This document shows positions 2,213 to 12,221 of a DNA stretch of 64,000 nt, one piece after another. The DNA lies in the NCBI RefSeq assembly GCF_020103725.1, contig NZ_JAHXBG010000025.1, forward strand, positions 62,001 through 126,000. The letters are read 5' to 3'. The stretch is from Hyalangium gracile (lineage in GTDB: Bacteria > Myxococcota > Myxococcia > Myxococcales > Myxococcaceae). Within the stretch, counting starts at the first letter, position 1. Every line of letters starts with the position of its first letter. The position numbers were made by a program, and so were the translations under genes. The notes below the pieces were generated by a model. That model was not told the origin of the DNA and did not search any database. It saw only the letters and a program-made list of their open reading frames with translations.

Positions 2213-2467
2213 CGAGATCCTCTCGCCTCTGCATCACCCTGCCTCCTGTGGATGGGATGACGGTCCATCCGGTTCCCGGGGCCGTTGTCTTTTTCCGGAC
2301 CTGAGCCGAGGAGCCCTCCACGGCTCGGCGGGTTGCTTGCTGAACAAACGAGGCAAGCCCCGCGGGAACCGGAAAAAAGCTCGTTCCGTCCCCGCCGCAT
2401 TGATGAGCAGGCCCGCCGTTGGTTTCGGCATCGCACCTGCTCCCACGAGTGTGGAGGGAGTGACTTC

Positions 2468-4108
2468 ATGCAGGTCCCAACCGTTTCCGCGCCCCGAGCC
2501 GATGCCGCGGCGCCTTCCTGGAAGAGCGACATCGTCTCCGGGTTCCTCGTCTTCCTCATCGCGATGCCGCTGTGTCTGGGTATCGCGATGGCGAGCGGCT
2601 TTCCGCCTGTCGCCGGCATCCTCACGGCCGTGGTGGGCGGCGTCGTCTCCACGTGGCTGGGCAGCGCCCGGCTGACGATCAAGGGACCGGCGGCGGGGCT
2701 GATCGCCATCGCCATCGCCGCGGTGCAGGAGCTGGGCGGCGGTGACATGCGCCTGGGCTACCGGCGCGCGCTGGCCACCATCGTCCTGGCCGCGGTGGTG
2801 CAGATCCTCTTCGCGGTGCTGCGCTCGGGGAAGCTGGGAGACTTCTTCCCCTCATCGGTGGTGCACGGGATGCTGGCGGCGATCGGCGTCATCATCTTCT
2901 CCAAGCAGGTGCACACGCTGCTGGGCGTCACCCCCCAGGGCAAGGCGCCCTTCGAGCTCCTGGCGGAGATTCCCCAGAGCCTGACGCGGATGAACCCGGA
3001 GATCGCCCTCATCGGGCTCGTCAGCCTGGTGCTGATCTTCGGACACCTGGGGCTGAGCACGCGGCTACCGGCGCTCAAGCGCGTTCCGGCGCCGCTGCTG
3101 GTGCTGCTGGCCGCCGTGCCCATGGGGCTGCTCTTCGAGCTGGACCATGAGCACACCTTCACCTGGTCGCAGAACGTCTATTCGGTGGGCCCCAACTTCC
3201 TGGTCAATCTGCCGGGCAACCTGCTGTCCGCCATCACCTTCCCGGACTTCTCCGCCGTCTTCTCGGCGCCCTCGCTCAAGTACGTGGCCATGTTCGCCCT
3301 GGTGGGCAGCATCGAGTCGCTGCTGAGCGCCAAGGCGGTGGACATGTTGGATCCCCAGAAGCGGCGCTCGGACCTGGACAAGGACCTGCTGGCGACCGGC
3401 GTGGGCAACCTGATCAGCGGCCTGCTCGGAGGCCTGCCGATGATCTCCGAGATCGTCCGCAGCTCGGCCAACATCAACTATGGGGCCAGGAGCCGGCTCT
3501 CCAACTTCTTCCACGGCCTGTTCCTGCTGCTCTTCGTGGCCTTCGCGCCAATGCTCATTCACCGCATCCCGCTGGCGGCGCTGGCGGCGATGCTGATCTT
3601 CACGGGCGTGCGGCTGGCCTCGCCGAGCGAGTTCGTGAAGACGTTCCGCATCGGCGCCGAGCAGCTCGTCATCTTCACCTTCACGCTGGTGGTGACGCTG
3701 GCCACGGACCTGCTGGTGGGCGTGGCCGCGGGCATCGCGCTGAAGACGGTGGTGCACCTGTTCAACGGCGCGCCCCCGCGCAGCCTGTTCCGGCCGGAGA
3801 TCGAGACGCACCATGCCGAGGATCGCGTGGTGTTGCGGGTGCGGCACGCGGCCGTCTTCACCAACTACCTCACCATCAAGAAGCACCTGCTGCGGCAGGC
3901 GGATGCCCGGCACGTGGAGCTGGATCTGTCACACGCGCGGCTGGTGGACCACACGACGATGGAGCGGCTGCACGAGCTGGAGCACGAGTTCCGCCAGCAG
4001 GGCCGCCACTTCCGCCTCCTGGGGCTCGAGAAGCACCGGAGCCTCTCCGAGCACCCGCTGTCCGCGCGCAAGAAGATGGTGGACGCGGACCTCGGCCTCA
4101 CCTCCTGA
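2468..4108 (+). CDS. SulP-family anion transporter with C-terminal STAS-like domain
   Basis: 546 residues. The start ATG at 2468 was chosen because GGAGGGAG lies 7 bases before it; longer readings would add an unconserved leader. Residues 18-420 hold ten or more membrane helices typical of SulP/SLC26 permeases, including the substrate-site region PLCLGIAMASGFPPVAGI and the LTIKGPAAGLIAI segment. Residues about 430-530 form a soluble STAS-like tail. SulP proteins move sulfate or bicarbonate; the immediately following DabA gene (10-base gap) and the two NuoL/M-like genes make bicarbonate the better guess here. It is probably transcribed from the divergent region shared with the sigma-factor gene. 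Confidence 0.92.
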   Translation: MQVPTVSAPRADAAAPSWKSDIVSGFLVFLIAMPLCLGIAMASGFPPVAGILTAVVGGVVSTWLGSARLTIKGPAAGLIAIAIAAVQELGGGDMRLGYRRALATIVLAAVVQILFAVLRSGKLGDFFPSSVVHGMLAAIGVIIFSKQVHTLLGVTPQGKAPFELLAEIPQSLTRMNPEIALIGLVSLVLIFGHLGLSTRLPALKRVPAPLLVLLAAVPMGLLFELDHEHTFTWSQNVYSVGPNFLVNLPGNLLSAITFPDFSAVFSAPSLKYVAMFALVGSIESLLSAKAVDMLDPQKRRSDLDKDLLATGVGNLISGLLGGLPMISEIVRSSANINYGARSRLSNFFHGLFLLLFVAFAPMLIHRIPLAALAAMLIFTGVRLASPSEFVKTFRIGAEQLVIFTFTLVVTLATDLLVGVAAGIALKTVVHLFNGAPPRSLFRPEIETHHAEDRVVLRVRHAAVFTNYLTIKKHLLRQADARHVELDLSHARLVDHTTMERLHELEHEFRQQGRHFRLLGLEKHRSLSEHPLSARKKMVDADLGLTS

Positions 4109-4118
4109 GCAGGACACC

Positions 4119-7100
4119 ATGAGCCATCCGCATCACATTGCTGATCAAGTCCCCGCGGGAGAGCGCGGGGAGCGGCTGGGCCAGGCGCTGGCCCACGCAG
4201 CCCACCTGCTCCCGGTGCAGGGCCCCATCGGCGTCTTCGTGCACCACAACACGCTGCACGCCTTCCAGCACCTGCCCTTCCACGAGGCGCTGGCCACCGC
4301 GAGCGCCACACTGGGCACGGAGTCCTACCTGCCCGAGTCCCGCTACCGGGAGCTCTACCAGCAGGGGCGCATCACCGACGAGGACCTGGACGCCGCGCTG
4401 GCCGAGCGGGACTCGAGCGAGTCCGTGGTGGAGCTGGCGCCGGGACCACTCTCGCGGCGAGAGCTGGAGCGGCTGGCGCTGCTCCATCCGCTGCCCGCGG
4501 AGACGGCGGCCTCGCTGCGCTGGCGCATGGCGGAGCTGGCGGCGTCTCGGCGGCTTCGCGCGGATCTGCCCGAGGGCACGCGGGCCAGCCTCCTCCAGCG
4601 CTCGACCGAGGGGCTGCGCGCGTGGATGGACCGCGTGGGCCGGGACTGGACGGTGACGGAGCTGGCGAGCGCCCTGCTGGGCACCTCGGTGGAGGTGAGC
4701 GTCGTCATCGCCGCGGCGTCCCCGCCGAAGCTGTCCCGAGACGCCGCGCTGCGGAGGCTGGGCATCCCGGGGACAGCCATCGAGGCCTATCTGACGCGGG
4801 TGCGGGAGCTGATCGGCCGAGGCTCGGGCTCCTCCGTCGAGGTGGATGCGTGGCTGGCGGCGGAGGCGACGGTCGGGGTGCAGGCGCTGGCGGAAGCCTT
4901 TGGCGGTGATGGCAGCCTGTCCTCGCTGCGAGAGCGGCTGAGGCGAGATCCCGAGGCCTTCGCGGTGAGCGCGCTGTGGTCGGCCTGTCGCACCCCGCTG
5001 CTCCAGGTGAAGCGCCAGACGCCCGAGGACTCGCGGGAGCGGGGGCTCGGCCCTCGCGAGGTTCTGCGGGAGGTGACGGGCGAGGACGTGGGAGAGCTGG
5101 TCCACCCGCACCTCATCCGGGCGTGCGCGGCCTTCCTCGACCTGGGGGTGGCGCACTGGGCCATGCCCGATCGCGAGCGCGGGCTGTACTTCGCCTGGCG
5201 CGCCATGAAGCTCAGGGGCAGCGGCGTGCTGCCCCGGTGGCTCGACGGGCTGGAGGAGGAGCTGGCGCAGTCCGAGGCCCGGAACCTCTCGGCTCGGGAC
5301 GTGGTGCTGGCGGCGCTCGATGAGCTGGGCCTGCCCGAGACGCGGTGGGAGGACCTGCTCACCCGCGTGCTGCTCGCCCTGCCTGGCTGGGCGGGGATGA
5401 TGAGACGGCTGGAGCTCAACCCCGGTGATCGCCCCTCGGGTGCGCCACCGGCCTCGCTGATGGACTTCCTGGCCGTGCGCCTGACCCTGGAGCGCTTTGC
5501 CCTGCGCGACGTGGCGCGGCGGCGGCTGGGCTACACCGGTCCGCTGTCGGGGCTGATGGAGCATGCCCGCCGCACGGCTCCGCGGCAGGACTCCGCGCCG
5601 GAGCGCCCGGCGGAGCAGGGGAGCTGGCGCCTCTTCCAGTTCCTGCAGCTGGCGGGGATGACGGCCATGGACGTGGTGGACTTCCCGCTGAGCCGGCGCC
5701 ACGCCCTGCTCTCGTGGCTCGAGGCCTTCGACGCGACGTCCCGCCGCCGGGTGTGGCAGGAGGCCTATGAGCACCACTACCGGATGAAGGTGCTCCAGGG
5801 CGTGGGGCAGAACCGACGCCGTCCGGAGACGCTGCGCCAGGTGAGCGATGCGCGCTTCCAGGTGCTCTTCTGCATCGACGACCGCGAGGAGGGCATCCGC
5901 CGCCACTTCGAGGAGCTCAGCCCCAGGCACGAGACCTTCGGTGTAGCCGGCTTCTTCGGCGTGGCGGTGGACTACCGGGGGCTGGACGACGACAACACCG
6001 CCGCGCTGTGCCCGGTGGTCGTCACGCCTCGCCATCAGGTGGTGGAGCGCGCACACCCGGAGCACGGGCACCTGGCCGAGGCCCGCGCGAGGCTGCGCGC
6101 CTCGTGGGGCCGGATCGATCACTGGCTGCACGGCGGCTCACACTCGCTGGAGCTGGGCTGGCTGCTGACGCCAGTGCTGGGCCTGCTCTCCGTGCTGCTG
6201 ATGCCGCTGCACCTGCTCGTCCCGCACACGGTGGATCGGATGCGCCGGGCGCTGTCCCGGAAGATGCTGCCCGCGCCGCGCACGGTGCTGACGAGCCTCC
6301 GCCCGGACGAGCACTCCACGGCCACGGACGCCAAGCCCGTGGGCTTCACGGTGGCCGAGCAGGCCGACCGCGTGGCCGCCACGCTGGAGAACGTGGGGCT
6401 GGTGAAGAACTTCGCTCCGCTGGTGGTGCTGCTGGGCCACGGCGCGGTGAGCGTCAACAACCCGCACCAGTCCGCCTACGACTGCGGCGCCTGCGGTGGC
6501 CGGCACGGGGGGCCCAACGCGCGCCTCTTCGCGGAGATGGCCAACCGGCCCGAGGTGCGGGCGAGGCTGCGCCAGCGTGGCATCCACATCCCCGACACCA
6601 CCTTCTTCCTGGGAGGGCTGCACAACACCACCACCGATGAGGTGAGCCTCTCCGATACGGAGCACGTACCCGAGGCGCTCCGTGAGGAGCTGACGGCGTT
6701 CCGGCGGATGATGGACCGGGCGCGGATGCTCTCCGCGCACGAGCGCTGCCGCCGCTTCGAGTCCGCGCCGCTCACCCTCTCGCCCGCCGCGGCGCTGCGG
6801 CACGTGGAGGAGCGCGCGGTGGACCTGAGCCAGGCCCGGCCGGAGCTGGGCCACGTCACCAACGCGGCCTGTATCGTGGGCCGTCGCGCGCTGACGCGAG
6901 GGCTCTTCCTGGATCGGCGCTCCTTCCTCGTCTCGTACGACGCGACCATCGACGCCACGGGCTCCATCCTGGAGCGCATCCTGGCGGCGGTGGGGCCGGT
7001 GGGCGCAGGCATCAACCTGGAGTACTACTTCTCCTGCATCGACAACGACCGCTATGGGTGCGGCACCAAGCTGCCCCACAACCTCACCGGCATGCTCGGG

Positions 7101-7505
7101 GTGATGGATGGGGTGGAGAGCGATCTGCGCACGGGGCTGCCCCGGCAGATGATCGAGATCCACGAGCCGATCCGCCTGCTCATCCTCGTGGAGGCGAGCG
7201 TCGCGGTGCTGGCAGGCATCTATGAGCGGCAGCGCGAGCTGCGCGAGCTGATTGGAAACGGGTGGGTGCAGCTGGTGAGTGTGGATCCCGACACGGGGGC
7301 CATGCAGCGCTTCACGCCTCGCGGCTTCCAGCCCGTCACTCCGCCCGAGGCGCCGCTGCCGGTGGTCTCCGCCTCGCCCGAGTGGTACCGGGGGCAGCGG
7401 GACTTCCTGCCGCCGGCGTTGATCGACACCACGCAGGAGCCTCCCGTGAAGCGGCGCTCGGCTCCCTCTCCGCGCACTGGAGGTTCCGTCCATGCAGCTC
7501 AGTGA
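4119..7505 (+). CDS. dabA: DabA (DUF2309): carbonic-anhydrase-like subunit of Dab inorganic-carbon complex
   Basis: 1128 residues from ATG 4119, 10 bases after the SulP stop. The zinc-site pattern known from characterised DabA is present: Cys585-x-Asp587 in CIDDREEGIRR, His774 in LGHGAV and Cys789 in YDCGACGG; the 15-residue spacing between the last two matches the known protein. DabA hydrates CO2 to bicarbonate in the cytoplasm, driven by ion flow through a membrane partner. This copy is several hundred residues longer than the ~830-residue Halothiobacillus protein, mostly N-terminal to the zinc site, as in long members of DUF2309. It overlaps the next gene by 14 bases, so the two are coupled. 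Confidence 0.93.
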   Translation: MSHPHHIADQVPAGERGERLGQALAHAAHLLPVQGPIGVFVHHNTLHAFQHLPFHEALATASATLGTESYLPESRYRELYQQGRITDEDLDAALAERDSSESVVELAPGPLSRRELERLALLHPLPAETAASLRWRMAELAASRRLRADLPEGTRASLLQRSTEGLRAWMDRVGRDWTVTELASALLGTSVEVSVVIAAASPPKLSRDAALRRLGIPGTAIEAYLTRVRELIGRGSGSSVEVDAWLAAEATVGVQALAEAFGGDGSLSSLRERLRRDPEAFAVSALWSACRTPLLQVKRQTPEDSRERGLGPREVLREVTGEDVGELVHPHLIRACAAFLDLGVAHWAMPDRERGLYFAWRAMKLRGSGVLPRWLDGLEEELAQSEARNLSARDVVLAALDELGLPETRWEDLLTRVLLALPGWAGMMRRLELNPGDRPSGAPPASLMDFLAVRLTLERFALRDVARRRLGYTGPLSGLMEHARRTAPRQDSAPERPAEQGSWRLFQFLQLAGMTAMDVVDFPLSRRHALLSWLEAFDATSRRRVWQEAYEHHYRMKVLQGVGQNRRRPETLRQVSDARFQVLFCIDDREEGIRRHFEELSPRHETFGVAGFFGVAVDYRGLDDDNTAALCPVVVTPRHQVVERAHPEHGHLAEARARLRASWGRIDHWLHGGSHSLELGWLLTPVLGLLSVLLMPLHLLVPHTVDRMRRALSRKMLPAPRTVLTSLRPDEHSTATDAKPVGFTVAEQADRVAATLENVGLVKNFAPLVVLLGHGAVSVNNPHQSAYDCGACGGRHGGPNARLFAEMANRPEVRARLRQRGIHIPDTTFFLGGLHNTTTDEVSLSDTEHVPEALREELTAFRRMMDRARMLSAHERCRRFESAPLTLSPAAALRHVEERAVDLSQARPELGHVTNAACIVGRRALTRGLFLDRRSFLVSYDATIDATGSILERILAAVGPVGAGINLEYYFSCIDNDRYGCGTKLPHNLTGMLGVMDGVESDLRTGLPRQMIEIHEPIRLLILVEASVAVLAGIYERQRELRELIGNGWVQLVSVDPDTGAMQRFTPRGFQPVTPPEAPLPVVSASPEWYRGQRDFLPPALIDTTQEPPVKRRSAPSPRTGGSVHAAQ

Positions 7506-8910
7506 TTTCGAGGTGGGGCTGCTGGCCACCTCGGTGCCGCTCTGGCCCGCGCTGGCCTTCCTGCTGCTGGGGTGCACCCTGCTGGTGCACCACGCGCCGC
7601 GGGAGCGCACGGTGGCGGCCTGGGTGCTGCGGGCGCTGTGGCTGTCGCTGGTGTGCTCGGCGGGGACGGCGATCACCCTGTGGGCGCGGCATCAGGACGT
7701 GCTGGAGCTGAACGTGGGGCCGTGGTTCTCCGCCGGGGAGTACACCTTCGAGCTGTCCTTCCTCATCGATCGCCTGTCGGTGACGATGATGGTGCTGGTC
7801 AGCGCCATCACGCTGCTCATCGGTCGGTTCTCGGTGAACTACCTGCACCGGGAGCAGGGCTTCGCGCGCTTCTTCCTGCTGCTGGCGCTGTTCGCCACGG
7901 GCATGCTGCTGCTGGTGGAGGCGGGGAGCGTGGACCTGCTCTTCGTGGGCTGGGAGCTGGTGGGGCTCTCGTCGGCGATGCTGATCGCCTTCTTCCAGGA
8001 GCGGACGACGCCGGTGCGCTCGGGGCTGAGGGCCTTCACGATCTACCGGCTGTGCGACATGGGCCTGCTGCTGGGTGCGGTGCTGCTGCACCACTGGCTG
8101 GGGACGGCCGAGTGGGCGGAGGGGCTCGGGGCCAGGCCGTGGCCGGGCCCGGCGGTGGCGGTGGGCGAGGTGCAGGCGACGGTGCTGGGGCTGTGCCTGG
8201 TGCTGGCGGCCATGGGCAAGTCCGCGCAGTTCCCCTTCAGCAGCTGGCTGCCGAGGGCGATGGAAGGGCCGACGCCCTCGAGCGCCCTCTTCTATGGCGC
8301 GCTCTCGGTGCACGCGGGTGTGTACCTGCTGCTGCGGGCCGCGCCGCTGCTGGCGGGCTCGCCCGTGGTGTCCATGGTGCTGGTGGGCGTGGGGGTGGTG
8401 ACGGCGGTGCACGCCACGCTCGCCTGGCGCGTGCAGACGGACGTGAAGAGCGCGCTGGCCTACGGCGTGCTCACCCAGGTGGGGTTGATCTTCGTCGAGG
8501 TAGGCCTGGGGCTGTACACGCTGGCGCTGGTGCACCTGGTGGCCCATGCCTGCCTGCGCTGCCTGCAGCTGCTGCGGGCGCCGTCGGCGCTGCGCGAGGT
8601 TCAGGCCCGCCGGTCCGCTCTCCAGGCGGCGCAGGCCCCGTCCGTGGCGGTGGTCCACCGCGCGCTGCCCGAGGGAGTGGTGCGGGGCCTCTACCGGCTG
8701 GCGCTGGAGCGCTTCGCCCTGGAGGTGCTGCACGAGAGCTGGGCGATGCGGCCGCTGCTCCATGTCGGGCAGTGGATCGACAAGGCGGAGCGGTACTGGG
8801 TGGGGGCGCTGAGCGGCTGGAGCTCGAAGCCCGAGCCTGGCTCCACCCCGAAGCCCGAGGTGCTGGCGGCGGAGCGTTCATCGAGCGGCGAATCCACAGG
8901 AGCGGTGTGA
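7492..8910 (+). CDS. dabB: NuoL/MrpA-like proton-conducting subunit (DabB type)
   Basis: 472 residues with about 12 membrane helices of the proton-translocating NADH dehydrogenase antiporter-like family. The key residues of a working channel are present: Glu155 in FVGWELVGLSS and Lys243 in MGKSAQFPFSSWLP, followed by the conserved GPTPSSAL loop. The long C-terminal lateral helix of complex I NuoL is missing; instead residues 385-472 are a soluble tail. No other complex I genes are nearby, and the 14-base overlap with dabA indicates it is the ion-conducting partner that powers DabA. The ion is probably H+ but Na+ cannot be excluded. Confidence 0.88.
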   Translation: MQLSDFEVGLLATSVPLWPALAFLLLGCTLLVHHAPRERTVAAWVLRALWLSLVCSAGTAITLWARHQDVLELNVGPWFSAGEYTFELSFLIDRLSVTMMVLVSAITLLIGRFSVNYLHREQGFARFFLLLALFATGMLLLVEAGSVDLLFVGWELVGLSSAMLIAFFQERTTPVRSGLRAFTIYRLCDMGLLLGAVLLHHWLGTAEWAEGLGARPWPGPAVAVGEVQATVLGLCLVLAAMGKSAQFPFSSWLPRAMEGPTPSSALFYGALSVHAGVYLLLRAAPLLAGSPVVSMVLVGVGVVTAVHATLAWRVQTDVKSALAYGVLTQVGLIFVEVGLGLYTLALVHLVAHACLRCLQLLRAPSALREVQARRSALQAAQAPSVAVVHRALPEGVVRGLYRLALERFALEVLHESWAMRPLLHVGQWIDKAERYWVGALSGWSSKPEPGSTPKPEVLAAERSSSGESTGAV

Positions 8911-10454
8911 TGCAGGTGACTTCCCTTCCTCTTCTCTCGATGCTCGTGGCCGTGCCGGCGCTGGGGGCTGTGGCGCTCTGGTGGGTGCGTGCTCCTGAGC
9001 GTGCCCGCCAGTGGACCGTCGGTGTGACGGCCCTCACGCTGGCCCTGGCGGGGGTGGTGCTCGGGTTCTTCCGGACCGGGGCGGCTGGTCCCCAGTGGGT
9101 GGATGCGTGGGGGCAGGTGCCGGGGCTGGGCCTGGAGCTCCAGCTGGGCGTGGATGGAGCCAGCGTGGTGGCGCTGTGCCTCACCGCGCTGCTCACGCTG
9201 GGGCTGGTGGCGGCGGGGCCTCGGCAGCTGCTGGAGCGGCGCACGCTGGCGGTGCTGCTGCTCACCGAGAGCGCGACGCTGGGCTTCTTCTGCGCGCAGG
9301 ACCTGGCGCTGCTGACGGCCTTCTGGGTGGCCACGCTGGTGCCGGCCTGGGTGCTCGTCTCCCGGAACGCGCGAGCACAGCCGGAGTCGCGAGCGCTGCT
9401 GACCTTCCGGACGTACATGCTCGCGGGCACCTTGCCGCTCCTGCTGGTGACGGCGCTGGTGGGCGTGCTGGGCTGGCGCTCGGGCGTGCAGGCCCCGTGG
9501 GAACTGGCGGGGCTGGCGGCTCGCGGAGTGCCGGGCTCGTGGCAGCCGGTCGTGTTCGGGCTGCTGCTGCTGACGGCGTGCGTGCGGATGGCGGTGGTGC
9601 CCTTCCATTCCTGGCTGCCGGTGCTGATGGCGCGGGGGCCGTTCGGGCTGAGCCTGCTGCTGGTGAATGTGCACGCGGGGCTGTTCCTGCTGGTGCGGGT
9701 GGTGATTCCGCTGGTGCCCGAGGCGTGGGCGGCGGGTGGGACGATGGTGGTGGTGGTGGGGCTGTTCGGAGGGCTCTACGGCGCGGTGCTGGCGCTGGCG
9801 CAGGTGGATCTGCGCCGCACGGTGGGGTTCCTGATGGTGAGCCAGTCCGGGCTGATGCTGGCGGGGCTGGCGACGATGAACGAGCAGAGCGTGGCCGGCG
9901 TGTTGCTTCAGAGCGTGGCGACGGGCGTGGCGCTGACGGGGCTGAAGCTGGTGGTGGAGGTGCTCGGGGCGCGGACGGGGACCACGGACATGACGCGGCT
10001 GGGAGGGCTGGTGCGCAAGGCGCCGCGGATGGCGGCCTTCTTCTTCCTGCTGAGCTTCGCGAGCCTGGGCTTCCCGGGGACGCTGAGCTTCGTGGGAGAG
10101 GATCTGCTGCTGCACGGCGTGCTGGAGGCCCACCCGTTGGTGGCGCTACCCCTGCTGCTCACGACGGCCATCAGTGCCATCACGCTCTTCCGGGCCTTCC
10201 AGAAGACGTTCCTGGGGGGAGTAGCCCCGGAGCAGAAGCTGCTGCTCGAGACGGTGGAGGATCTGCTGCCACGCGAGCGCGTCGCGGCCCTGGGGTTGTT
10301 CGCCCTGGTCTTCGTGGGCGGGCTGCTGCCTGGGCCGCTCCTCCGGGTACGCGAGCACGCGGTGGACACCATGGTGGAGCGCGTGGCCGCTGTCCGAGTT
10401 CACGGTTTCCGCTGGGCCAGCTTCTCGAGCACGAGCTCGGCCTCCTCTCGGTAG
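8910..10454 (+). CDS. Second NuoM-like membrane subunit, channel residues degenerate
   Basis: 514 residues; the ATG overlaps the preceding stop (TGATG). About 13-14 membrane helices and the sequence VRMAVVPFHSWLPVLMARGP identify it as a NuoM/ND4-like antiporter subunit. The residues that carry protons in active members appear replaced: Val140 sits where the helix-5 glutamate is expected (FWVATLVPAW versus FWEMMLVPMY in NuoM) and Arg226 replaces the helix-7 lysine. It may be a structural or modulating partner of the dabB product. The last ~18 residues (Ser/Ala-rich SFSSTSSASSR) look unlike the family and overlap a possible antisense small gene. Published Dab systems have a single membrane subunit, so this is unusual. 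Confidence 0.85.
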   Translation: MQVTSLPLLSMLVAVPALGAVALWWVRAPERARQWTVGVTALTLALAGVVLGFFRTGAAGPQWVDAWGQVPGLGLELQLGVDGASVVALCLTALLTLGLVAAGPRQLLERRTLAVLLLTESATLGFFCAQDLALLTAFWVATLVPAWVLVSRNARAQPESRALLTFRTYMLAGTLPLLLVTALVGVLGWRSGVQAPWELAGLAARGVPGSWQPVVFGLLLLTACVRMAVVPFHSWLPVLMARGPFGLSLLLVNVHAGLFLLVRVVIPLVPEAWAAGGTMVVVVGLFGGLYGAVLALAQVDLRRTVGFLMVSQSGLMLAGLATMNEQSVAGVLLQSVATGVALTGLKLVVEVLGARTGTTDMTRLGGLVRKAPRMAAFFFLLSFASLGFPGTLSFVGEDLLLHGVLEAHPLVALPLLLTTAISAITLFRAFQKTFLGGVAPEQKLLLETVEDLLPRERVAALGLFALVFVGGLLPGPLLRVREHAVDTMVERVAAVRVHGFRWASFSSTSSASSR

Positions 10455-10585: not shown

Positions 10586-10736
10586 GTCCCCACCCGGGGT
10601 GCCGAGAGGGTGGGTAGGAGAGGGGTGGTCACATTCCTGAGGGTGCGCGTGTGCGGCACAATGCCGTCAACCCCCTGCGCTGCCTGTGGCCTGCCGCACT
10701 TCGGCGCCCGACTACCGCCAGCCAGCTGTGACGGAG

Positions 10737-12221
10737 ATGCGGCGCTTCATGGATCACTCGGGCCTGGGTTGTGTGCGGGAGCTTCGGCGCGGGCAACATG
10801 CCTGCCTCATCTACGATCATGGAGAAGATCCCCACACCGCAGTGGCGCCCTTCGCCGCCGCGGGGCTCGAGGCCGGTGAGCGCTGCGTTTATGTCGTCGG
10901 CGAGCACGATCCCGCTCGCATCGAGCGCAGCCTGACGGCGGCCGGAGTCGACTTCGCGCGGCAGCTGCAACGGGGAGCGCTGGTCCTGCTGAGCCGCTGG
11001 GAAGTCTCTTTTCCCAATGGTGAGTTCGATCCCACCGCCATGATCGGCTTCGTGCGCCAGGCCATCACCCAGGCCCTGGCGGACGGCTTCACCGGCCTGC
11101 GCGTCGTCGCCGAGATGACGTGGGCACTGCAGATGGGCGTCGGCGCCAACAAGCTCATCCACTACGAGGCGCTCGGAAACCACCTGTACCCGGACGAGCC
11201 CCTGGTCGCCGTCTGCATGTACGACCGCTCCCGCTTTCCCGTGGCGGTCTGCCATGACGCCCTGCGCGTCCACCCCTGGGTCGCCGTGGGAGAGGTGACG
11301 TACGACAACCTCTATTACGAGCCACCGGCGACGGTGATCGATGGCGCCGCCGCCGACACCCGTGTGCAGTGGATGCTCGAGCAGCTGCAGCGTGTGCGCG
11401 AGGCCGAGGTCCAGCGGCGCGAGCTGTACTCCGCCCGTCTGGCGCGAGAGGAGGCCGAGGCCTCGGCCCAGGCCAAGGACGCGCTCCTGTCCATGCTGGC
11501 GCACGAGCTGCGCACGCCGCTCACCAGCATGCTCATGTACACCCAGGCCTCGCTCCGCAAGCTCGAGGCCGCGCAGGCGGCCGATCTGCCCTCACTCCGA
11601 CGCAGCCTGGAGGTCGTGGCCCGTCAGGCGACGAAGCAGGCGCGGCTGATCGACCAGGTGCTCGACGCCGCGCGTCTGGCCTCGGAACAGCTGCCGCTGA
11701 CCCTCGAGCACTGCGATCTCGCCGCCCTGGTCAGGGAGGTGGTCGAGCTCACCCAGGCCGCGGCTCCGGAACACCCCCTGGTCGTCCAGGTCTCCAGCCA
11801 GGCCGAGATGATGGCCGATCCGCTGCGCATCGAGCAGGTGCTGGTCAACCTGCTCGACAATGCTCGGAAGTACACCCCTCCTGGGACCTCGATCGAAGTC
11901 GGGATCCTCCCGGAGTCGGAGGGCATTGCCCTGGTGGTGAGAGACCATGGAGCGGGCATCCCCACCGAAGATCATGGGCGCATCTTCGAGCGGTTCCACC
12001 GCCTGCGCAGCGATCAGAAGGGCGTCGGACTCGGGCTGCACATCAGCCGCGAGATCGTCCGCATGCATGGCGGCGACCTGCTGGTCGAGACGCCCCCGGA
12101 CGGCGGGACCCGCTTCATCGCTCGCTTCCCTCGCCATGAGGCGGCCTCCCAGAAGCCCGGGAGGCAGGAGAAGGACCCTCGCTCGACTCCTCGAGCCAGC
12201 GAGGAGCACCCACACCCCTGA
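10737..12221 (+). CDS. MEDS (DcmR-type) sensory histidine kinase
   Basis: 494 residues from ATG 10737; a GTG at 10686 and an ATG at 10749 are alternatives, and the MEDS domain starts just after this point. Residues about 10-180 match the MEDS/DcmR sensory domain (RRGQHACLIYDHGED near the start, then YVVGEHDPARIERSLTAAGV), thought to bind small organic or C1 compounds. A coiled linker leads to a HisKA domain with His256 in MLAHELRTPLTS, then an ATPase domain with NLLDNARKYT, DHGAGIP and GVGLGLHIS boxes. There is no membrane segment, so it senses a cytoplasmic signal. No response regulator is adjacent; it is an orphan kinase. The C-terminal 30 residues are Pro/Glu/Ser-rich. Confidence 0.88.
   Translation: MRRFMDHSGLGCVRELRRGQHACLIYDHGEDPHTAVAPFAAAGLEAGERCVYVVGEHDPARIERSLTAAGVDFARQLQRGALVLLSRWEVSFPNGEFDPTAMIGFVRQAITQALADGFTGLRVVAEMTWALQMGVGANKLIHYEALGNHLYPDEPLVAVCMYDRSRFPVAVCHDALRVHPWVAVGEVTYDNLYYEPPATVIDGAAADTRVQWMLEQLQRVREAEVQRRELYSARLAREEAEASAQAKDALLSMLAHELRTPLTSMLMYTQASLRKLEAAQAADLPSLRRSLEVVARQATKQARLIDQVLDAARLASEQLPLTLEHCDLAALVREVVELTQAAAPEHPLVVQVSSQAEMMADPLRIEQVLVNLLDNARKYTPPGTSIEVGILPESEGIALVVRDHGAGIPTEDHGRIFERFHRLRSDQKGVGLGLHISREIVRMHGGDLLVETPPDGGTRFIARFPRHEAASQKPGRQEKDPRSTPRASEEHPHP

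Follow-up and report, generated by a model that had tools for sequence, protein, structure and literature searches.

The locus considered here raises the question of what a second antiporter-like membrane subunit could contribute to an inorganic-carbon pump when residues expected along its proton path have been replaced. Dab pumps are thought to use the proton-motive force, making CO2 hydration one-way. Schmid et al. (J Bacteriol, 2021) reportedly described DAC complexes built from one, two or three subunits, and the three-subunit class is said to have been tested in E. coli, where all subunits were needed. The window, i.e., the whole stretch of 64,000 nucleotides of Hyalangium gracile DNA that was analysed, carries a dabA gene followed by two genes for membrane subunits, named B1 and B2 hereafter. 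The features on which the analysis relies are the following:

2285..4108, + strand: SulP/STAS anion transporter (PF00916, E 2.3e-60; PF01740)
4113..7505, + strand: DabA, 1130 aa, carbonic-anhydrase-like cytoplasmic subunit (PF10070, E 2.1e-254)
6171..6173, + strand: DabA Pro687, occupying the position of the finger Glu444 that is essential in DAB2 (alignment)
7492..8910, + strand: B1, 472 aa, NuoL/DabB-like; TM1-11 followed by an amphipathic tail, TM12-15 absent (PF00361)
7954..7956, + strand: B1 Glu155, equivalent to NuoL Glu144, in TM5 (alignment)
8218..8220, + strand: B1 Lys243, equivalent to NuoL Lys229, in TM7 (alignment)
8910..10454, + strand: B2 (the "y" subunit), 514 aa, NuoM-like (PF00361 and model)
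9327..9329, + strand: B2 Val140, replacing NuoM Glu144 in TM5 (alignment)
9585..9587, + strand: B2 Arg226, replacing NuoM Lys234 in TM7 (alignment)
10098..10103, + strand: B2 Glu397-Asp398, TM12 carboxylates at the site of NuoM Glu407 and NuoL Lys399-Asp400 (alignment)

On the forward strand, the genes succeed each other in the order SulP-STAS, DabA, B1, B2 and then a MEDS histidine kinase. The B1 reading frame overlaps the end of DabA and the B2 start overlaps the B1 stop (TGATG), which suggests translational coupling. The window DabA aligns to PDB 9rd0_A (E 2.7e-76) with all its zinc and catalytic residues in place (C587, D589, H776 and C794), and this Cys, Asp, His, Cys (CDHC) set was found in 181 of 181 aligned loci. 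With a catalytically equipped DabA and a NuoL-like B1 adjacent to it, the locus matches the Dab/DAC inorganic-carbon complexes. Membership in respiratory complex I was rejected, B2 being located between DabA/B1 and the MEDS histidine kinase, with no redox-subunit neighbours; other PF00361 genes of the same genome are found on contigs C5 and C6. The SulP-STAS gene, whose true start is uncertain, lies directly upstream of DabA, and SulP is found beside DabA in many related loci; a role of its product as bicarbonate transporter is possible. The MEDS-domain histidine kinase downstream of B2 occupies positions 10686-12221.

B2 is encoded by an intact reading frame containing one complete PF00361 match (profile positions 1-293 of 294, E 7.9e-37). 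When placed over NuoM/ND4 chains, its AlphaFold2 model (pLDDT 91.2, pTM 0.90) gives Z values of up to 48.3, the top match having an rmsd of 2.2 over 479 residues; this superposition concerns the fold only, the residue equivalences being taken from sequence alignments. A pseudogene is excluded by the full reading frame and the high-confidence predicted fold. When B2 was aligned with a PDB NuoM chain and with E. coli NuoM, Val140 fell on NuoM Glu144 and Arg226 on NuoM Lys234, in agreement with a preliminary description of the window. Other channel positions are changed as well, with NuoM K265 replaced by His, H322 by Gln and H348 by Thr, leaving B2 without equivalents of the TM8 Lys and the TM11 His. 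Glu397 is retained at NuoM Glu407 in TM12 and is followed by Asp398, both residues being invariant in 34 B2 sequences. B2 is therefore NuoM-like in its fold and in its TM12 Glu, while it lacks the TM5 Glu and the TM7 Lys. As one channel position is still held by a Glu, the proposal that this subunit has lost its proton-path residues holds for the N-terminal half only.

B1 (PF00361, E 2.1e-39; match to DabB2 of PDB 9rd0_B, E 1.1e-33) presents the reverse picture. Glu155 and Lys243, said to be kept in the first subunit, do align to NuoL Glu144 and Lys229 and do not vary among 34 B1 sequences. Its PF00361 match ends at profile position 225 of 294, which indicates a truncated subunit, and a hydropathy scan of the window B1 found no TM-like segment after TM11; the AF2 model has a pLDDT of 77 with a poorly modelled tail. 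Set against a two-gene locus of the DAB2 type, the window thus lacks TM12-15 after TM11 and has Pro687 instead of the finger Glu444, in an alignment that is less certain for the finger than for the other regions. Another finger Glu, E680 (codon at 6150), lies seven residues upstream of Pro687; a Glu at this -7 position is found in Myxococcaceae-type DabA, that of the window included, i.e., in 22 of the 78 three-gene loci. The finger hairpin is still hydrophobic, without the Glu.

The functional weight of these residues can be appreciated from DAB2 of Halothiobacillus neapolitanus. According to the available excerpts of the 2026 structural study (PMC13144422), the proton entrance of DAB2 is located partly on the catalytic subunit. 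TM4-11 of DabB2 resemble the NuoL cytoplasmic half-channel, TM12-14 are displaced and admit the DabA finger, and finger Glu444 stands at the place of NuoL Lys399/Asp400, its replacement (E444A or E444Q) abolishing DAB2 activity (PMC13144422, excerpts). The active DabB2 carries Ile151 in place of the TM5 Glu, and I151E halved growth (PMC13144422, excerpts). As a consequence, the TM5 Glu is unusable as an activity test for Dab, the important site being TM12 or the finger, and the pair of TM5 Glu and TM7 Lys cannot be taken as the mark of an active subunit, as the preliminary description had done.

The distribution of these features was then considered in a survey sampled by DabA search, which is not a census. 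A DabA turned up in 45 of the 195 genomes from the window's phylum and in 83 of the 369 from a class containing Nitrosomonas. The named scan covered the 80 best-scoring of 580 relatives, and these 80 loci came from Myxococcota, Planctomycetota, Acidobacteria, Verrucomicrobia, Proteobacteria, Actinomycetota and one Chloroflexi MAG. In total, 181 DabA loci were classed by their best DabA profile and their neighbours, eight of them being put into the five-gene class by hand owing to contig ends or fused genes, and collapsing near-identical DabA (97% or more) left 174. These were divided into 78 three-gene loci (DabA-B1-B2), 42 two-gene loci, 31 five-gene loci (in the order NuoM-like x, DabA, B1, B2-like y, NuoM-like z), 7 DAB1-like loci, 4 loci in which B1 and a C-half-only B2 are fused, 11 cut loci (twelve before redundancy reduction, held as a separate class) and one odd locus, L224, kept apart. 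The "two-gene" class takes in cut contigs on which no DabB is visible (L043, L046, L051 and L058). Gapped rows were dropped from the count of each site (for B2, 2 at TM5 and 5 at TM12), and the counts of TM-like segments are approximate, since the simple hydropathy scan that was used detects 11 such segments in NuoM and 13 in NuoL. The unusual cluster L224 has a DabA with a finger Asp, with NuoM-like and DabB-like genes further downstream.

Among the readable B2 and y orthologues, a TM5 acid was found in 0 of 101, which discards chance or a sequencing error as the origin of Val140 and Arg226, and the TM7 position was occupied by Arg in 89 cases, Ala in 7 and Lys in only 4 of 103. On sequence grounds, a complete antiporter-type channel in B2 can thus be ruled out, the N-half residues being gone in all 101. 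The TM12 break, in contrast, contained a carboxylate in 98 of 98 orthologues, and Asp, Glu or His stood at the NuoL-Asp400 site in the same proportion (98/98), even if the identity of residues 407/408 varied (ED, TE, AH, EH). Hence, the loss of the proton path proposed for B2 is general in the N-half and does not extend to TM12. The opposite pattern was observed in the x and z subunits of five-gene loci, where TM5 Glu and TM7 Lys are conserved (49/49 each) while a titratable residue occurs at the Asp400 site in only 1 of 46. This is further illustrated by mean entropy, which reached 2.50 bits in the N-half of B2 vs 2.10 in its C-half, compared with 0.96 vs 1.08 for x and 1.14 vs 1.12 for z: the N-half of B2 is less constrained than its C-half, unlike in x and z. 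The y clade does form one side of a branch, albeit with an SH-aLRT of only 73 and long branches. Since x and z keep all the tested TM5, TM7, TM8 and TM12 channel residues, five-gene complexes might move several protons per CO2. Such clusters (L102, L107, L109, L112, L127, L136, L149, L152, L158, L161, L163 and L169) were observed in Nitrosomonas, Nitrotoga, Methylobacter, Crenothrix and Rubrobacter.

The state of the partner proteins follows the locus class. The finger Glu444 of DabA was present in 41/42 two-gene and 7/7 DAB1-like loci, and in none of the 78 three-gene and 31 five-gene loci, 14 of the latter having Asp. Conversely, the TM5 Glu of the L subunit was found in 78/78 three-gene and 28/28 five-gene loci vs 0/37 two-gene and 0/7 DAB1-like ones. 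No TM-like segment follows TM11 in 74 of 78 three-gene B1, whereas three or more do in 37/37 two-gene DabB and 6/7 DAB1-like subunits. On the DabA tree, the finger state and the TM5 state change a single time each; being one deep split, hence one event preserved over a long time, their joint loss lends no independent statistical support, and co-occurrence was discarded as a statistical proof. The DabA of L043, on a short contig, scores as two-gene type yet has Gly at the finger Glu site. In the DAB1-like loci (L223, L225, L226, L229, L230, L236 and the second DabA of L242), the finger Glu is kept, with Arg at the NuoL Lys229 site in 7/7 and no TM5 Glu.

Natural truncations and fusions give a complementary view of B2. 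In seven loci (L052-L057 and L085), B2 is only 336-357 aa long and misses part of the N-half while keeping Glu-Asp, as does the 390-aa B2 of L081. In L086, L087, L218 and L221, B1 and a C-half-only B2 form one chain, in which the TM12 acid is kept except in L221; these four loci, seemingly counter-examples without a visible B2, proved to possess its C-half fused to B1. In L123 and L228, an extra hydrophobic segment joins B1 to a full B2; the like fusion in L094, through an Arg-Ala repeat, is less certain.

Taken together, B2 keeps its TM12 carboxylates where B1 is without TM12-15 and DabA without the finger Glu, so that the losses look complementary. In complex I, NuoM TM12 adjoins NuoL TM5. 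From the observed residues, predicted fold, gene order and natural fusions and truncations, we infer that B2 may be a half-channel donor rather than a second channel, its TM12 acid completing the half-channel of B1 into one composite proton path, a reading to which we give a probability of about 50%. B1 (TM1-11) would carry the cytoplasmic half-channel, with a Glu155/Arg186/Asp189/Lys243 gate, Lys319 and His348/His352, while the C-terminal half of B2 would present Glu397-Asp398 in a broken TM12. The two subunits would most likely meet as NuoL and NuoM do in complex I, so that the B2 TM12 acid faces the B1 TM5 Glu; the proton route would start at B2 TM12 on the periplasmic side, cross the gate of B1 and run out of B1 in the direction of DabA. 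This single path would drive vectorial CO2 hydration by a DabA-B1-B2 complex. The parts outside the interface would have decayed, namely the charged residues in the N-half of B2, the TM12-15 region of B1 and the finger Glu of DabA, which does the job of the TM12 acid in two-gene DAB2. One composite path is favoured because the kept residues would meet at an interface of the NuoM-to-NuoL type and the lost ones would lie outside it. The full statement, in which two incomplete antiporter-like proteins have discarded opposite halves and share a path at their interface that replaces the DabA finger carboxylate, is put forward tentatively, at somewhat less than even odds. B2 would then be a distinct and widespread class of Dab subunit, defined by a missing TM5 acid together with a titratable residue where NuoL has Asp400. 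The initial picture of an active and a degenerate subunit would survive insofar as the two are functionally unequal, B2 not being simply degenerate given its retained TM12 carboxylates.

Several observations do not fit half-channel donation easily. The alternative finger Glu at -7 is one of them, and full-length B2 retains its N-half as a folded domain. Among 23 five-gene loci, 12 have a finger Asp and no B2 carboxylate at 407/408, and 7 have neither, with only His408 and an acid at 405; a strict rule of "finger acid or B2 407/408 acid" was thus rejected, as 91 of 98 loci fit it and 7 do not. Moreover, in the actinobacterial five-gene B1s of L144 and L169, TM11 is followed by four TM-like segments although a B2 is present, and the L221 fusion is without the TM12 acid.

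The same missing TM12-15 of B1 could also be explained if B2 docked at the C-terminal end of the B1 bundle, close to TM9-11 and the DabA finger, and filled this gap, its TM12 acid replacing Glu444. The C-half-only B2 that follows B1 in L086, L087, L218 and L221 and the finger hairpin that remains hydrophobic without its Glu are in line with such docking; nevertheless, the constant TM5 Glu of B1, lost in two-gene DabB, would be left unexplained, TM9-11 of a full-length B2 would be redundant and L144 and L169 combine post-TM11 segments with a B2, which makes it a fairly unlikely arrangement. A purely structural or assembly role, with Glu-Asp serving helix packing or a salt bridge, would account for the lost TM5, TM7, TM8 and TM11 channel residues and for B2 always adjoining B1 in classified three-gene loci. 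It is judged unlikely, because the identity of residues 407/408 varies while the TM12-break carboxylate and a titratable residue 408 persist throughout (98/98), which fits protonation better than packing, and because the DabA Glu that B2 would replace is functionally essential in DAB2. Finally, B2 as a second working channel, moving more ions per CO2 as proposed in 2017 for multi-subunit operons (PMC5700660, excerpts), could accommodate the TM7 Arg, as Arg also replaces this Lys in other DabB subunits (7/7 DAB1-like and 4/37 two-gene). This is highly improbable in view of the uniform absence of a TM5 acid (101/101), the TM11 His missing in nearly all and the N-half being truncated or missing in some lineages.

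If the three-gene class had indeed moved its proton entrance to the NuoM-like subunit, it would provide a natural experiment on the residues coupling protons to CO2 hydration. This would suggest that ion stoichiometry cannot be read from the number of genes, and the C-half-only B2 fused to B1 would offer naturally shortened forms in which to see how little of an antiporter module suffices. The arrangement, proposed as new for Dab complexes, is not so at the gene level: the available excerpts of PMC5700660 (2017) describe COG3002 (DabA) with a NuoL homologue behind it, as well as COG1008 (NuoM) and a sulfate permease, and offer the guess that more membrane subunits mean more ions. A B2-type subunit is unmentioned in the available excerpts of PMC10880623, PMC8438413, PMC12628692 and PMC13399641, and a search of openly licensed papers found no description of the B2 residue pattern or of its complementarity with B1 and DabA. 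The gene arrangement is thus already known, while the residue complementarity was not found in this openly licensed literature.

Among known systems, the COG3002 "clade C" operons (YbcC, NuoL, NuoM and sulfate permease) have the same gene content and share the DabA-before-NuoL order; their account differs in proposing extra ion translocation, without residue analysis in the available excerpts (PMC5700660). Two-gene DAB2 (PDB 9rd0; PMC13144422, excerpts) shares the zinc and catalytic residues of DabA and the cytoplasmic half-channel residues of the NuoL-like subunit, and has a single membrane subunit with TM12-15, a finger Glu444 that completes the channel and a TM5 Ile. The window locus, in contrast, has no finger Glu444 and no TM12-15 in B1, keeps the B1 TM5 Glu and adds a NuoM-like subunit. 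With respect to complex I, B2 resembles NuoM (ND4) in its fold and TM12 Glu, and B1 shares with NuoL (ND5) the residues of TM1-11, TM5 Glu and TM7 Lys among them. However, NuoM keeps the TM5 Glu, TM7 Lys and TM8 Lys and NuoL has TM12-16, and these subunits are encoded with redox subunits, whereas B1 and B2 are encoded with DabA.
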